Source: a bacterium
Lineage (GTDB): Bacteria > Patescibacteriota > Minisyncoccia > UBA6257 > GWB1-50-10
NCBI GenBank assembly: GCA_002686365.1
Contig: NZBZ01000010.1
Coordinates: 1-33,693 of the forward strand
DNA: 33,693 bases
Reading direction: 5' to 3'
Each line of letters starts with the position of its first letter. Position 1 is the first letter of the stretch. The position numbers and the translations under genes were made by a program. The notes beneath the pieces are model-generated. The model saw nothing but the letters and a program-made list of their open reading frames with translations, was not told the DNA's origin and did not search any database. Shown in pieces: positions 602 through 33,556 of the stretch.

Positions 602-1714
602 CTAGATGCCAGACACGTACGAAATCACCTCATATCCAAACGCTAAAAGAAAAACAGCATATATTGGCGCCCGAACCCAATACCACCTACTATCAGAAAA
701 CACCCTACCCCACATAGTAACAACAAATACCCCCTCAAGCGCTAAGAATATTCCTCCTGCAAGAGAAACAAGAGTCAAGAAGTCTGTAAAACCTAAAAGA
801 TAAAAAACAAGTGGAAAACACAAAGGAACAGCTCCAGCAACCATTCTAGAAACATGCAAATCAGTCTTTAAAATATCCCGAACATTTCTCCCTATTACAA
901 AATGCGAGGTCCAAATTGCTACAAGACCAAGCGCGCCCAAAAACTTCATAAGCAAAGGAGACAAATAAAACCCATCTAAAGCCTGCGGGCTAACTTGAGG
1001 ACTAAGACGCAAAATAGCAAACACAAAAAATACATACACCACAGCCGGAAACACAGTGCCTGTAAAAATCGCAAAGGGCAATGAAAAACCTCTTCGCCTT
1101 TTCCTTGCCTCTCTATAAAGTGAGACAACCTGCGGAACAGCACTCCGCGCACTCAAAGAAAAAAGAATCGGACCAAAAGGAAGAAAGACCATAAAAAGAT
1201 CAACATCCTTCACAAGAGAAAAAGAAAATTCTTTACCAAAGCTCGCGGAAAGAACAACAATAACAATTCCCGCCATTGCAACCACGCCCAAAAATCCTGC
1301 CCATGACTGCTTAGAAAGCCCAAGAAAAATAAAAATTGAACCAATAATCCAAAATATAAATACAACTCCTATGCCCTCTATCCCAAATAAAAGTCTTGCG
1401 AAAGAAGGGGCAAGCGCAAGATAAATCAAAAGCGCAAAAAGAAGCCCGGCAATAATAAGAAACGAACCAAGCCGAGCAATACTACGAGGCAAGTACTGTT
1501 CTGCAAGATACAAAAAATGATGTCCGCCCCCACTCTTCTGAAGCACCTTCGCATACATAAGATGAACACCAAAATACACAAGAGCAAACAAGGCTAAAAA
1601 AAGAATCCCAATAAGGACCCCAACCTCTGAAAAAACATACGGCAAGGCGAATATCCCTGCACCCATTGCAGTACCAGCCAAAATCCCCACTGCTTGGAAA
1701 AAATACCTATTCAT
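602..1714 (-). CDS. Aromatic amino acid/HAAAP-type permease, multi-TM
   Basis: MNRYFFQAVGILAGTAMGAGIFALPYVFSEVG start typical of Trp/Tyr permease-like transporters; many hydrophobic helices. Confidence 0.8.
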   Translation of the reverse strand: MNRYFFQAVGILAGTAMGAGIFALPYVFSEVGVLIGILFLALFALVYFGVHLMYAKVLQKSGGGHHFLYLAEQYLPRSIARLGSFLIIAGLLFALLIYLALAPSFARLLFGIEGIGVVFIFWIIGSIFIFLGLSKQSWAGFLGVVAMAGIVIVVLSASFGKEFSFSLVKDVDLFMVFLPFGPILFSLSARSAVPQVVSLYREARKRRRGFSLPFAIFTGTVFPAVVYVFFVFAILRLSPQVSPQALDGFYLSPLLMKFLGALGLVAIWTSHFVIGRNVRDILKTDLHVSRMVAGAVPLCFPLVFYLLGFTDFLTLVSLAGGIFLALEGVFVVTMWGRVFSDSRWYWVRAPIYAVFLLAFGYEVISYVSGI

Positions 1715-1810
1715 CCCTCACTCTTGACGAACAATATCGCCAAAATTAAAAAGCACTATCTCGACCTATAATCCCCCATCTCACACATAGGCACGTGCCA
1801 AGAGTGAGGG
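1715..1810 (-). repeat. Start-codon-abutting inverted-repeat element (permease leader)
   Basis: CCCTCACTCTTG (1715-1726) / CAAGAGTGAGGG (1799-1810), perfect 12-bp stem; flanked on minus strand by ATGAAT on both sides, the 3' copy being the permease start. Confidence 0.8.
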
Positions 1811-1881
1811 ATTCATACAACAACCTCCCACCAATAAAGTGGAAGAAAAGAATTTCTTTCTCCCTACTTAACCAATAGAAC

Positions 1882-2059
1882 AAGCGAAAGAAGTTTGCTT
1901 GTAAGTGATTGCCGGAGCGCGCCCGAACATGCACGAGCGAGTAGTTATTTTTCCGGGCGCCCGCGAAACGAAGTGGAGCAGGGCGGAAAAATAACGTAAC
2001 GAGCGAGTAAACATGTTCCGCGCGCGGAGGTTTAACGAACAAGCGGACTTCTTTCGCTC
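1882..2059 (-). repeat. Long foldback element L1, beginning at the stop codon of the EF-Tu-like gene
   Basis: Arms AGCGAAAGAAGT(tt/cc)GCTTGT, nested stems around AACATG/CATGTT and TTATTTTTCC/GGAAAAATAA. Confidence 0.8.
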
Positions 2060-2351: not shown

Positions 2352-3704
2352 TTATAACTCTTGAACATCTCTCTGTTTTGGCACTGATATCTCAATCCCA
2401 AGCTCTGTCCGAGCTCGTTCGGCAAGAGCCTCCGCTTCTTCCGGCTCACCCTGAGTCACAAACACCTTCTTCGCATTTTTCAAATGGGATAACCAATTCA
2501 CAAGCTCATCCTGATCCGCATGGGCAGAATATCCCTGAATAGTTTCTTTGCGGCACCGAACCGGAACCTCCTCTCTTAAAATCTTCACCTTCTCCACGCC
2601 ATCTAAAATTCTTCGGCCAAGCGAACCACTTGCTTGATATCCGATAAAAAGAATAGAGCTCTTCGGATCCGAAAGATACGCCTTCTCATGATGAATAATC
2701 CTTCCGCCATTTGACATACCAGCTCCGGCAATAACCACCTTAGGCGGCACCACATGCGCAATCTGCTTTGACTGAAGAGTAGTAAGAGTCATCTGCAAGC
2801 CCGGAAAATCAAATATCGCATCCCCTCCCTTAATAAGCTCTATGGCCTTACCCTGAAAATACACTGGATCCTTTGAATACTTCTGATATATTGCCGTAAG
2901 CTTAATAGCCAGAGGACTATCAAGAAAAATAGGAATGTCAGGAATTTTATCATTCTCCACCAAGTCATTAAACTCATAAAGAAGCTGCTGGGTCCGCTCA
3001 AGAGCAAACGCGGGCATCATTAAAACGCCGCCAGCCTTCACCGTCTCCTCCACTAAAGCCTCCATCTTACTCTTCCGCTCTTCCATCTCTTCATGAATAC
3101 GACCCCCGTAAACCGACTCAACCAAAGCATAATCCACGTCCTTTGGATACTCCTTGCCTGTAATAAAAGGAGCATCAATATTCCCTAAATCTCCTGAAAA
3201 AAGTACTTTCTTGCCCTCTGCATGCACCAAAACAGATGATGAGCCCAAAACATGCCCGGCATTTATAAACTCCGCCTCAAAACTCCTCACCTGAATTTTC
3301 TCATGATACTGCCGCTTCTTCCAAAGCTTCATCACCTCCTGTACATCCTGAGTATCATACGGAGACTCCTTCTTCGCATGTTTTGCCTCCTCAGACAAAA
3401 TATGCTCCGAATCCAAAAGCAATAACTCTGCAAAATCCTTTGTGGGAGGAGTGGAATATATAGTCCCATGAAATCCCTGCTTGTAGAGCATGGGTAGCCG
3501 CCCAATGTGATCAATGTGAGCATGAGTAATAAAAATCGCCTCAATATCCCGAGGGTCATATGGGAAAGGCTCAAAATTCTGCCGCTCAGCATACCGAGAG
3601 CCCTGAAAAAGACCACAATCAACTAAAATCTTGGTCTTTCCAACCTCAACCATATAATTCGCTCCAGTAACAAACTCTGCCCCTCCGTGAAAGGTTAGTT
3701 TCAT
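2352..3704 (-). CDS. MBL-fold beta-CASP RNA-metabolising hydrolase (YSH1/CPSF73-like)
   Basis: MBL HxHxDH motif (THAHIDHIGRLP), beta-CASP/RMMBL region (GYQASGSLGRRILDG, GYSAHADQDELVNWL). Confidence 0.93.
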   Translation of the reverse strand: MKLTFHGGAEFVTGANYMVEVGKTKILVDCGLFQGSRYAERQNFEPFPYDPRDIEAIFITHAHIDHIGRLPMLYKQGFHGTIYSTPPTKDFAELLLLDSEHILSEEAKHAKKESPYDTQDVQEVMKLWKKRQYHEKIQVRSFEAEFINAGHVLGSSSVLVHAEGKKVLFSGDLGNIDAPFITGKEYPKDVDYALVESVYGGRIHEEMEERKSKMEALVEETVKAGGVLMMPAFALERTQQLLYEFNDLVENDKIPDIPIFLDSPLAIKLTAIYQKYSKDPVYFQGKAIELIKGGDAIFDFPGLQMTLTTLQSKQIAHVVPPKVVIAGAGMSNGGRIIHHEKAYLSDPKSSILFIGYQASGSLGRRILDGVEKVKILREEVPVRCRKETIQGYSAHADQDELVNWLSHLKNAKKVFVTQGEPEEAEALAERARTELGIEISVPKQRDVQEL

Positions 3705-3823
3705 CCCGTTAGAGACAAGATATGCTTCTTAAGCACATCCGTTATGTTTTCTAAGCGCACCATAACGACTGTCTGGTTTATTGCAGTTTGTAATATGACT
3801 AAACTTTGATTGTCTCTAACGGG
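3705..3823 (-). repeat. Start-codon-abutting structured element (MBL leader), paralogue of the dnaA leader element
   Basis: CCCGTTAGAGACAA/TTGTCTCTAACGGG terminal stem; interior aligns to 31814-31932 (shared ACGACTGTCTGGT). Confidence 0.88.
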
Positions 3824-3869
3824 ATTCATAATATCTAGTATACCTCACAACCCCCCTTTCCCCCAAGCA

Positions 3870-13548: not shown

Positions 13549-13755
13549 GTACTCTACAAAAGGAGTATTTTTTACCCAAGAATCCCAATTACAGGTCTGT
13601 GGGCGGCCCCGGGATATTTCTTTAGACCCTTAGGACTTTCTGGCTTCGGCTGGGAATCTCCTCAAGAAAATCCTACCTTTTCTGATGTATGTCGGAAAAG
13701 TTCCTTTCGCCTTTTGGCAAATAGTCGCCCACAGACCTCTGATCGGGATTTTTTA
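13549..13755 (+). ncRNA. Candidate structured non-coding RNA (~205 nt) with closing-stem terminator
   Basis: Closing stem AATCCCAATTACAGGTCTGTGGGCG (13581) with CGCCCACAGACCTCTGATCGGGATT (ending 13750) then TTTTTTA; internal hairpins GGC-TTCG-GCT, CTTTTCTGA/TCGGAAAAG, GCC-TTTT-GGC; no convincing ORF. Confidence 0.75.
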
Positions 13756-25901: not shown

Positions 25902-26079
25902 AATTAAAAACGTTCTTTGTGAATGATTGTTGGAGGGAGTCGGGACCGCGTTGCGAGCGAATAGGTGTTTTGCCGGGCACCCGTGAGCCCGAAGGGCGAG
26001 GAGGGTGGCAAAATACCGTGCATGAGCGAGCATCACGCGGTGACGAACGAAAACTTAATGAACAAGAATGTTTTTAATT
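25902..26079 (-). repeat. Long foldback element L3, outer arm containing the PBP1A stop codon
   Basis: AATTAAAAACgTTCTT / AAGAATGTTTTTAATT outer arms; inner stem aligned to L1. Confidence 0.85.
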
Positions 26080-30433: not shown

Positions 30434-31813
30434 TTACGCTTTCTGCAAGCGGTCCTTGATAAGGGTAATGCGTTGGTTGAGTTGCGGATTTTGGCTCACC
30501 TCTCTTGAAATCTTTTCATATGCATGAATTGCAGTTGTGTGGTCTCTTTTTCCAAGCCTCTCGCCTATGTGGGGATAAGAAAGATTGAGCACGTCCCGCA
30601 TGAGATACATACAGACCTGTCGGGGCTCAACAATCTCCTTTTTCCTGCTTCTATCAGAAAGCTCCTGCGGAGAAACGTCAAAAAAGTCAGCAACAGTCTT
30701 TAGAACATCCTGAACAGTAATATTTTTAGAGACTACATTCGTCACTTCCTGAATAATCTCGTCAACTTTTCGTGTCGTCACCTTCTCTCCCTTATACTGC
30801 TGATAAAAAATAACTTTATTTAACACGCCCTCAAGCTCTCGGATGTTATTTTGAATTTTAAGCGCCACATGTTCCAAAATCCCATCCTCAAGAACAACCT
30901 CCTGTTGATCAACCTTCGCGCGTAAAATAGCAAGACGCATCTCATAGTCCGGATAGCTAATATCTATTATCATTCCTCCCTCAAACCGAGAGCGAAGCCT
31001 CTCTTCAAGGGTAGGAATTGCGGCTGGAGGCCGGTCAGAAGACATAATAATCTGTTTATTGTGCTCATGCAGAGTATTGAACGTGTAAAAGAACTCTTGT
31101 TCTGTTGCGGCCTTGCCCCCAATAAACTGAATATCATCAATTATGAGGAGGTCTACGTCGCGATACTTGCTCTTAACATCATCCATCCGTCTATTTCGAA
31201 GCGCCCAGACCACGTCATTAATAAATTTTTCCGAAGTTACATAGAGTACCCGAACCTTTTTAGAATACTTCTTCTGAATCGCATTTCCTGCAGCCTGAAT
31301 AAGGTGAGTCTTTCCAAGCCCCACTCCCCCATACAGAAAAAGCGGATTATACTTCGTGCCAACATCATCAATCACGGCCTGAACAGCAGCATAGGCAAGT
31401 TCATTTGAGGAGCCGACAATAAACGAATCCAGCGCATATCTCGGGTTAAGATTCGTCTTTGGATCAACGCGAAGCTCCAAGAGAGGTTCTTGGGGGCGAA
31501 CAGAGACTTTTGGCCCTCCCTGACTTTTCCGCACGCGCTTTTTAAGGGCCTCTGCATTCTGAGAATTCACCACAACATAATCAACGCTTTTTACCGCGCC
31601 ATCCAAGTTACGAAGCGAACCCAGAATAAGTTTATGATATCGAGTTTTTACCCAGTCTTTTGCAAAATGATTAGGCAGCCCAATTAAAGCAACTCCATTT
31701 TTATCGTTCTTATCAACGAGCTGACTTTGTTTTAGCCAGGTAAGAAAATTTGGACGAGAGATTTGAAGCTCTATCTCTCCTAATACAGTTTTCCAAAGTT
31801 CGTTGCTGTTCAT
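30434..31813 (-). CDS. dnaA: Chromosomal replication initiator DnaA
   Basis: NPLFLYGGVGLGKTHLIQAAGNAI, LLIIDDIQFIGGKAATEQEFFYTFN, LSYPHIGERLGKRDHTTAIHAYEKI. Confidence 0.98.
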   Translation of the reverse strand: MNSNELWKTVLGEIELQISRPNFLTWLKQSQLVDKNDKNGVALIGLPNHFAKDWVKTRYHKLILGSLRNLDGAVKSVDYVVVNSQNAEALKKRVRKSQGGPKVSVRPQEPLLELRVDPKTNLNPRYALDSFIVGSSNELAYAAVQAVIDDVGTKYNPLFLYGGVGLGKTHLIQAAGNAIQKKYSKKVRVLYVTSEKFINDVVWALRNRRMDDVKSKYRDVDLLIIDDIQFIGGKAATEQEFFYTFNTLHEHNKQIIMSSDRPPAAIPTLEERLRSRFEGGMIIDISYPDYEMRLAILRAKVDQQEVVLEDGILEHVALKIQNNIRELEGVLNKVIFYQQYKGEKVTTRKVDEIIQEVTNVVSKNITVQDVLKTVADFFDVSPQELSDRSRKKEIVEPRQVCMYLMRDVLNLSYPHIGERLGKRDHTTAIHAYEKISREVSQNPQLNQRITLIKDRLQKA

Positions 31814-31932
31814 CCCGTTAGAGGCAGAGCGTGCTTAGGGGCACGTCCGTGATTTTTTGTTAGGTTGCACCATGACGACTGTCTGGTGGCTATGGTATGT
31901 GATGCGTACATTTTTTGATTGCCTCTAACGGG
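31814..31932 (-). repeat. Start-codon-abutting structured element (dnaA leader)
   Basis: CCCGTTAGAGGCA/TGCCTCTAACGGG terminal stem; paralogue of 3705-3823. Confidence 0.88.
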
Positions 31933-31938
31933 ATTCAT

Positions 31939-32038
31939 TCCATTAGAAAATATAAATATAAAAGCCTCGTAGATTAAGAGCACAAGAGCCCCGATGCGAT
32001 ATCGTGAGAGAAGATGAAAGCGTAAATTTTCTAATAGG
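31939..32038 (-). repeat. Second inverted-repeat element in tandem upstream of dnaA
   Basis: CC-ATTAGAAAAT ... ATTTTCTAATAGG, bounded by ATGAAT on both sides (minus strand). Confidence 0.75.
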
Positions 32039-32075
32039 ATTCATAATGATAATAGATAAAAAATAAAGACCACCC

Positions 32076-32674: not shown

Positions 32675-32705
32675 AATCCTAAAGCCTAGAGCATAAACCA
32701 TGAAT

Positions 32706-32803
32706 CCCTCACATAACATACAATTAAAATCATATGTATATCGTCGAGAGTTTTATAATAATACCGAGCGCGCAATTTTTAAGCGTGTAGGTTTATGTGA
32801 GGG
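32706..32803 (+). repeat. Start-codon-abutting inverted-repeat element (yidC leader)
   Basis: CCCTCACATAA (32706-32716) / TTATGTGAGGG (32793-32803); flanked by ATGAAT and ATGAAA. Confidence 0.85.
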
Positions 32804-33556
32804 ATGAAATATATTTGGAACACATTTCTCTATCAGCCAATACTAAGTACGCTCGTCTTTATATATGACAAGGTAGCATTTGGAGACTTTGGGCTTGCAG
32901 TGGTTATTCTTACCATCGTTATACGAATCGTACTCTTCCCCCTCTTTTACAAGGGGGCAAAACAGCAGGCAATTATTCAAAAAATACAGCCAAAGATTAG
33001 AAAGATTCAGAAGGAGCTAAAGCACGACAAGGAGAAGCAGGCTGCGGAACTCATGAAAATCTATAAGAAGCATAAGATAAACCCCTTCTCCTCAATTTTA
33101 ACACTGCTGGTTCAGCTCCCAATACTCATTGCTCTCTATCGCGTGATCTTAAATGAGATAGGAGGTGAATTTTTTGACAATTTTATCTTTTTAGGGTTTA
33201 TTGACTTAAGGGAGAAGAGCATAATAATCGCTGTAATAGCTGCAATCCTTCAATATGTTCAGATACGGCTGGCAATGCCGAAGAAATCTACAGAAAAAAG
33301 CAGCAATCCAATCGCATCAGCCGGAAGGATGATGGCCTATATTGGACCTGGGCTAACGCTTTTCATACTCACAAGGTTCCCTGCAGCCCTCGGTATTTAC
33401 TGGCTCACATCAACCATTTTCTCTATAGGCCAGCAGATATATATAAATAAACGCATCAAAAAAGAAGATGTAGATGAGGAAATAGAAGAGCTGAAAGAGG
33501 AGGCCGAAGAAGAAGTAGAAAAAGAAGAGGATAAAGAAAACAAGACGAAGACATAA
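32804..33556 (+). CDS. yidC: YidC/Oxa1-family membrane protein insertase
   Basis: FGLAVVILTIVIRIVLFPLFYKGAKQQAIIQKIQPKIRKIQKELKHDKEKQAAELMKIYKKHKINPFSSILTLLVQLPILIALYRV. Confidence 0.97.
   Translation: MKYIWNTFLYQPILSTLVFIYDKVAFGDFGLAVVILTIVIRIVLFPLFYKGAKQQAIIQKIQPKIRKIQKELKHDKEKQAAELMKIYKKHKINPFSSILTLLVQLPILIALYRVILNEIGGEFFDNFIFLGFIDLREKSIIIAVIAAILQYVQIRLAMPKKSTEKSSNPIASAGRMMAYIGPGLTLFILTRFPAALGIYWLTSTIFSIGQQIYINKRIKKEDVDEEIEELKEEAEEEVEKEEDKENKTKT

Follow-up and report, generated by a model that had tools for sequence, protein, structure and literature searches.

MITEs and small bacterial insertion sequences are dispersed, carry terminal inverted repeats and a short target-site duplication (TSD), and have deletion derivatives that outnumber the coding parent. 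The element that we describe here, from the leader of dnaA in a member of the Patescibacteriota, is alike in these respects. However, its parent encodes a GIY-YIG nuclease and no known transposase, its target is the start codon, and the nuclease open reading frame (ORF) takes its start codon, and often also its stop codon, from the host. Of the criteria for a DDE insertion sequence, inverted repeats and a TSD (TGRR, mostly 4 bp) are met, while a DDE-coding parent is not. Elements of the IS200/IS605 and RAYT/REP groups likewise have hairpin ends with a functional single-stranded fold and tiny non-autonomous copies, but their Y1 transposase is absent from this genome, and they are not known to duplicate their target as this element does. 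Rickettsia palindromic elements are selfish palindromes of about 100-150 nt that coding regions tolerate and that often have an open frame. Those lie within ORFs, whereas the present element lies at the start codon, has a known coding parent and has a length that is not a fixed multiple of 3.

A GIY-YIG nuclease is also linked with transposition in Penelope-like elements (PMC3846280); these are retroelements with a reverse transcriptase, and none was found in this genome. The criteria for a free-standing homing endonuclease are met for the catalytic GIY-YIG domain but not for the cognate allele, as one genome has 27 unrelated hosts. In the rRNA genes of CPR bacteria, GIY-YIG ORFs occur outside any intron, unlike homing according to the authors, together with many uncharacterised insertions of <200 bp that are short and ORF-less (PMC11270868, 2024). 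Those insertions come from the same bacteria but lie in rRNA genes, and the relevant passages of that paper do not mention terminal repeats, duplications or start codons. It is possible that they represent the same family with another target.

The window, by which we mean the whole analysed stretch of 33,693 nucleotides, is from contig 10 of an 888-kb, 21-contig genome. Its features are listed in Table 1.

Table 1. Start-codon insertions and associated features in the window.
Feature	Position	Strand	Details
dnaA, host gene	30434..31813	-	459 aa
Non-autonomous A-type element in the dnaA start codon	31813..31933	-	121 nt; TCCCGTTAGAGGC...GCCTCTAACGGGA
TSD at dnaA, 5' copy	31934..31937	-	TGAA; with A31938, the start codon before insertion
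TSD at dnaA, 3' copy	31809..31812	-	TGAA; rebuilt dnaA start
Open frame from the old start codon through the element	31810..31938	-	42 aa, MNPVRGNQ...LPLTG; stop TGA overlaps the dnaA start (ATGA)
Older decayed element directly upstream (probable)	31938..32039	-	TCCTATTAGAAAATTTA...TATATTTTCTAATGGA-A; third ATGAA at 32044-32040
A-type element, start codon of metallo-beta-lactamase-fold gene (2352-3704)	3704..3824	-	TSD TGAA 3825-3828, 3700-3703
B-type element, start codon of tyrP-like permease gene (602-1714)	1714..1811	-	TCCCTCACTCTTG...CAAGAGTGAGGGA; TSD TGAA 1812-1815, 1710-1713
B-type element, start codon of yidC (32804-33556)	32705..32804	+	TCCCTCACATAAC...TTATGTGAGGGA; TSD TGAA 32701-32704, 32805-32808

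The dnaA leader carries an inverted-repeat element at the start codon. An earlier note, made from the sequence alone, had described such an element flanked by ATGAA repeats, and this is confirmed. The arms of 15 nt are fully complementary (31812-31826 and 31920-31934), the RNA fold has an energy of -47.7 kcal/mol (z = -4.5 against shuffles), and ATGAA occurs at 31938-31934 and again at 31813-31809, where dnaA begins. In dnaA sense, the order is ATGAA-T-CCCGTTAGAGGC...GCCTCTAACGGG-ATGAAC. The note's claim that the start pentamer is duplicated held in part, as the duplicated unit is the 4-bp TGAA. Its claim that the element ends one base before the start codon is corrected: the element includes, as its last base, the A of the dnaA ATG (31813), whose pairing partner is the T at 31933.

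The dnaA leader likely records two rounds of insertion, in which the intact element entered a start codon that had been rebuilt by the decayed element upstream. The older element is the less certain of the two, and its fold is not below that of shuffled sequences (z = -1.05). Similar stacking is also seen at four other loci (L222, L223, L247 and L276).

The duplication tracks the host gene. ATGAA precedes proteins that begin MK or MN, ATGAT precedes enolase (MI...), ATGAG precedes MR or MS, and ATGGA precedes MD. Since TGAA, TGAG, TGAT and TGGA thus vary with the gene, they are a 4-bp TSD. Among 90 copies collected from other genomes with a pattern blind to the flanks, the base before CCC is complementary to the base after GGG (A/T in 82, G/C in 7), the sole exception being a spurious pairing of neighboring copies; 76 of the 90 abut ATG. 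The start codon can also change across the element, from GTG to ATG (L106, L146), from TTG to ATG (L107) or, in a C...G-ended copy, from ATG to GTG (L120). Because old and new start codons differ in these cases, the terminal base must belong to the element, and given the GTG and TTG cases a 5-bp duplication of ATGAA was dropped in favor of TGNN plus an element-borne A. The element TCCC...GGGA therefore enters N/TGRR (the slash marks the point of entry, between the first and second bases of NTG), duplicates TGRR and contributes the A with which ATG is restored.

At ATG, the duplication in other-genome copies is 4 bp long in 46 cases, 5 bp in five and 3 bp in three. Roughly one in four of the 90 copies lacks a perfect duplication, and many of these appear decayed (ATG to ACG). 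Eight start-codon copies in genus g11, the genus of G010 and G034, have a constant 5' flank, ATTTA, in place of the duplication (L293-L300). At L160, from this genus too, ATTTA stands on both sides, inside nifS, as if the left flank had been carried along by one copy.

Copies of the element are dispersed across the genome at gene starts. The four insertions in the window have dnaA, the metallo-beta-lactamase-fold gene, the tyrP-like permease gene and yidC as hosts. A DNA search of the genome returned three further close copies, including the one at 3704-3824, and each ends in GGG directly followed by ATG at a gene start. An inverted-repeat search for CCCN7...N7GGG, with no condition on the flanks, found 147 pairs, 27 of which have an exact 5-bp direct repeat: 24 element copies at ATG, two C...G-ended relatives and one chance-like case (GTCTT, a 396-nt pair). 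With the third subfamily included, at least 27 insertions with an exact duplication lie at the first codon of an ORF in the 888-kb genome. One more copy, at C18 57655-57756, was recovered by the flank-blind search only and is outside this list of insertions. The weakest of the listed insertions, number 13, is a 28-nt minimal hairpin before a 29-aa ORF.

Hosts, named by reading N-termini, include dnaA, yidC, enolase, uvrA, two sugar epimerases, rpmC, rpsQ and rplI. The start codons of the adjacent ribosomal genes rpmC and rpsQ are both invaded (G000 C1 104371-104495 and 104741-104837). Where orientation relative to the host gene can be told, A-type copies are sense in 51 cases and antisense in 5, and B/C-type copies in the window's genome are sense in 17 and antisense in none. 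The C...G-ended relatives, CCCCGTTAGA...TCTAACGGGG, lie at G000 C4 166161-166757 (locus L038) with duplications GTCAA and GCAAG near gene 3' ends, where a TAG stop comes from their left arm. In other phyla, C...G-ended relatives are often located away from start codons.

Other repeats and hairpins were observed as well. A 176-nt imperfect hairpin with 28-bp arms (86%) lies between the pilB stop and the ruvB start (window 13578-13753, minus strand); it ends TCCC...GGGA, has no duplication, is present as a single copy, has no Rfam match and recalls 6S RNA in shape. At the stop codon of an 85-aa ORF (2058-2315), a 20-bp inverted repeat bounds another 176-nt segment (window 1883-2058, minus strand), the interior of which matches C21 over 156 nt, C4 three times and window 25954-26030. 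This segment likely belongs to another dispersed repeat family. Paired CCCGTTAGA ends surround tRNA-like sequence at G088:C5:33534-33639 and at L102.

Full-length copies encode a GIY-YIG nuclease and nothing else. Two such copies are present in the genome (C20 73980-74256 and C18 16759-17045), each of 277-287 nt with a single ORF of 94-95 aa. Both proteins exceed the family cut-off, with a PF01541 match of 5.6e-16 for the C20 nuclease, and the closest solved structure is 1ZG2, a UPF0213 GIY-YIG protein. The catalytic residues Y11, Y13, Y24, G26, R34, H38 and E58 are invariant in eight such proteins. The ORF of about 95 aa has no start codon of its own and uses that of the invaded gene: the reading frame begins at the host start codon and runs through the duplicated bases into the left arm, which gives MNPVRD... 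or MDPSHN... as the N-terminus. With a TGAN duplication (e.g., TGAA), the TGA of the rebuilt ATGA serves as the nuclease stop. B-type copies retain the terminal arms and a GTCGAGARCAT-like stretch, which encodes SRE in the C18 nuclease. Short copies are likely to be internal deletions of long ones.

The same arrangement is found at GIY-YIG genes in other genomes. We examined 80 named loci, those with the closest relatives (498 found). Terminal repeats are present at 74, and 61 of these also have a duplication of at least 3 bp. Counting only ORFs of at least 50 aa, 50 of the 61 lie at a start codon (ATG to ATG in 44, ATG to GTG in 4, GTG to ATG in 2); at L210 and L254 the nuclease begins with the host's GTG. 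The records are mostly from Parcubacteria, with others from Microgenomates, Saccharibacteria, Omnitrophota, Desulfobacteraceae and further groups. Since they are metagenome bins, the taxonomic outliers may reflect binning errors.

Element ends are present in 74 of 246 genomes of the order, and a reversed-pattern control gave none. With a narrower pattern that required ATG, A-type copies were found in 12 of 389 genomes sampled across the phylum, in several classes. The closest named relatives of this genome's elements are from Parcubacteria and other Patescibacteria.

Empty sites, a comparison for which the earlier note had asked, were found for dnaA and for typA. The dnaA leader was inspected in 29 relatives from the family and has the element in none of them, and in the closest dnaA relatives, G002 (DnaA 82% identical) and G007, a similar upstream region runs straight into ATG. 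The typA gene of G001 carries an insertion with TGGA duplicated, while the sister species G025 has a single TGGA and matches the joined flanks over 252 nt, gap-free, at 87% identity. At glyS (L286), the sister also has about 120 nt at the site. L164 and L285 are contiguous in BLAST but with an unclear junction, and typA alone was used as a sister-species empty site.

Both the arms and a subterminal hairpin show covariation. Nine arm positions that were fixed by the search pattern were left out of the covariation test of the arms. At three pairs beyond these, there are 50 two-sided changes, a count reached by none of 500 shuffles, and over the whole arm 99% of cells are paired. In the subterminal hairpin, which adjoins the right arm, six of seven pairs show covariation, with 27 two-sided changes and none of 500 shuffles reaching that number. 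These counts are uncorrected for relatedness. Because both arms and hairpin co-vary, it is likely that a folded single strand, DNA or RNA, is recognised.

A conserved cis-regulatory RNA leader (a riboswitch, thermometer or translational attenuator) for dnaA and similar genes is a very unlikely origin for the element. In its favor are the stable fold that pairs the start codon, the covariation, and frames from the 5' start that are open beyond chance. Against it, the element is missing from every other dnaA leader inspected in the family, its host genes have no common function, its flanks are a duplicated target that differs from gene to gene, its full-length copies encode a nuclease, and there is no relevant Rfam match.

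Thus, of the two readings in the earlier note, that of a foldback element with a TSD at the start codon is strongly supported, because the copies are many and dispersed, the duplication follows the gene, relatives have empty sites, and full-length copies code for a nuclease. The other, an RNA element controlling dnaA translation, is not supported as an origin, although translation of dnaA is likely to be affected as a consequence of the insertion. The further copies that the note suspected were found, both in the window and genome-wide. A lack of enrichment at start codons, which it named as refuting, was not observed: the flank-blind search, made genome-wide, did find start-codon enrichment (24 of 24 T...A-type copies with an exact duplication are at ATG). 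We conclude that the dnaA leader element is very likely (probability roughly 0.82) a non-autonomous, MITE-like copy of a family of start-codon-targeting transposable elements.

The frames that end at or near the host start suggest how invaded genes stay expressed. The frame from the old start is open through the element in 39 of 91 copies; shuffled interiors would give about 12, and the two other frames are open in 18 and 13. In 36 of 91 copies its stop falls within -10 to +4 of the new start (10.7 expected); 14 of these overlap the new start as ATGA, and 22 stop 3-4 nt before it. We infer that translational coupling keeps host genes expressed, although part of the excess may be coding ancestry. 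In this model, ribosomes from the old start would read through the element and open the hairpin, terminate at the new start or no more than 4 nt from it, and then reinitiate. Close A-type copies do have an open frame, but a conserved leader peptide was considered and rejected, since the copies differ in length modulo 3 and their peptides lack conservation.

Start codons are likely to be chosen as targets. By our own rough gene prediction, ATGRR occurs in the genome 330 times as a start codon, 1169 times between genes and 7442 times inside genes, and start codons make up only 22-31% of the ATGRR/ATGAA sites outside genes. That 26 of 26 insertions lie at starts has a probability near 1e-8 even if starts were 50% of the tolerated sites. 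TGAA is found at 22 of the 26 own sites, compared with 27% of ATG starts (p = 1e-9), and across genomes 77 of 81 start-codon sites have TGRR. The A+T content of upstream regions is slightly raised (0.72-0.74 versus 0.67). A search for a targeting signal (a promoter -10-like, leaderless or Shine-Dalgarno-like motif) revealed hardly any difference from other starts.

Alternatively, insertion could be untargeted, with survivors only where the start codon was rebuilt. In support of this, the duplication and the terminal A rebuild ATG, so that start-codon insertions are unusually mild, and some copies are in other tolerated places (L160, L162 and the C4 3' ends). Yet intergenic ATGRR sites outnumber start-codon ATGRR sites by about 3.5:1 (rough prediction), and none of the genome's own duplicated T...A-type copies lies there; the 51:5 orientation bias and the preference for TGAA beyond the start-codon background also count against this reading. 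We therefore regard untargeted insertion as unlikely and retain the choice of start codons as the better account.

We infer that the GIY-YIG nuclease is the transposase. There is no experimental evidence for this, and genome content and co-occurrence support it without proving it. It would work in cis, or in trans on MITEs, cutting the target with a 4-nt stagger and mobilising a folded single-stranded form of the element. Among 59 relatives, close nuclease relatives accompany MITEs in 13 of 18 genomes, compared with 16 of 41 others (p = 0.019). This link is only moderate, with p = 0.056 when any GIY-YIG match is counted, and G041 has four MITEs with no nuclease match.

An unlikely alternative is that an ordinary transposase (DDE or Y1/HUH) moves the element in trans as a MITE, with the GIY-YIG gene as a passenger or homing cargo. 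DDE transposition typically involves terminal repeats and leaves a short duplication, and some genomes have MITEs but no close nuclease. However, GIY-YIG is the sole protein in full-length copies across many lineages, and Y1 elements are not known to leave a target duplication. No match to a Y1 transposase (PF01797), DDE_Tnp_1 or RVT_1 was found in the window's genome, which is 91.5% complete, and few transposase families were tested. The single rve transposase in the genome has terminal repeats of its own, unrelated to those of the element.

A further alternative is that the GIY-YIG gene spreads by homing, through a double-strand break and repair, like free-standing homing endonucleases. GIY-YIG is a homing endonuclease fold, and the conserved short target motif recalls homing sites. 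The targets, however, are unrelated genes with only NTGRR in common, and 4-bp duplications and non-coding deletion derivatives with kept termini are hallmarks of transposons; we consider homing very unlikely. Two other candidates were discarded. Integron attC sites were ruled out, as the GTTRRRY/RYYYAAC order is inverted, and a group I or group II intron was rejected, with no Rfam intron match and no RVT_1 in the genome.

A bolder form of the transposon reading can be put forward, which we favor by a narrow margin. These elements would be a self-contained class of transposon in which a minimal GIY-YIG nuclease is the sole enzyme and inserts a folded single-stranded copy into start codons through a 4-nt staggered cut at N/TGRR. 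The class would have no start codon and often no stop codon of its own, and would be nearly neutral through the rebuilt start and read-through. To our knowledge, no insertion-sequence or homing family combines this enzyme class, this target and borrowed start and stop codons. Neither a GIY-YIG element with target duplications nor start-codon targeting is described in the open-access literature that we searched, and an earlier description elsewhere is not excluded. The element family is thus likely to be categorically new or, on a stricter view, a new insertion-sequence superfamily.

If this reading is correct, mobile DNA would have in start codons a safe harbour of a new kind, one that every gene offers and that each insertion restores. 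Many of the small GIY-YIG proteins whose role in CPR/Patescibacteria is unknown would then be accounted for, and perhaps also the GIY-YIG ORFs and short insertions that lack an explanation in CPR rRNA genes. Annotation in these genomes would need correction, as MNPVRD... ORFs and unusual 5' leaders would be transposons or what is left of them. With a nuclease of about 95 aa as its transposase, the family would use a new chemistry of transposition, and the enzyme might serve as a compact tool for inserting DNA at the starts of genes.
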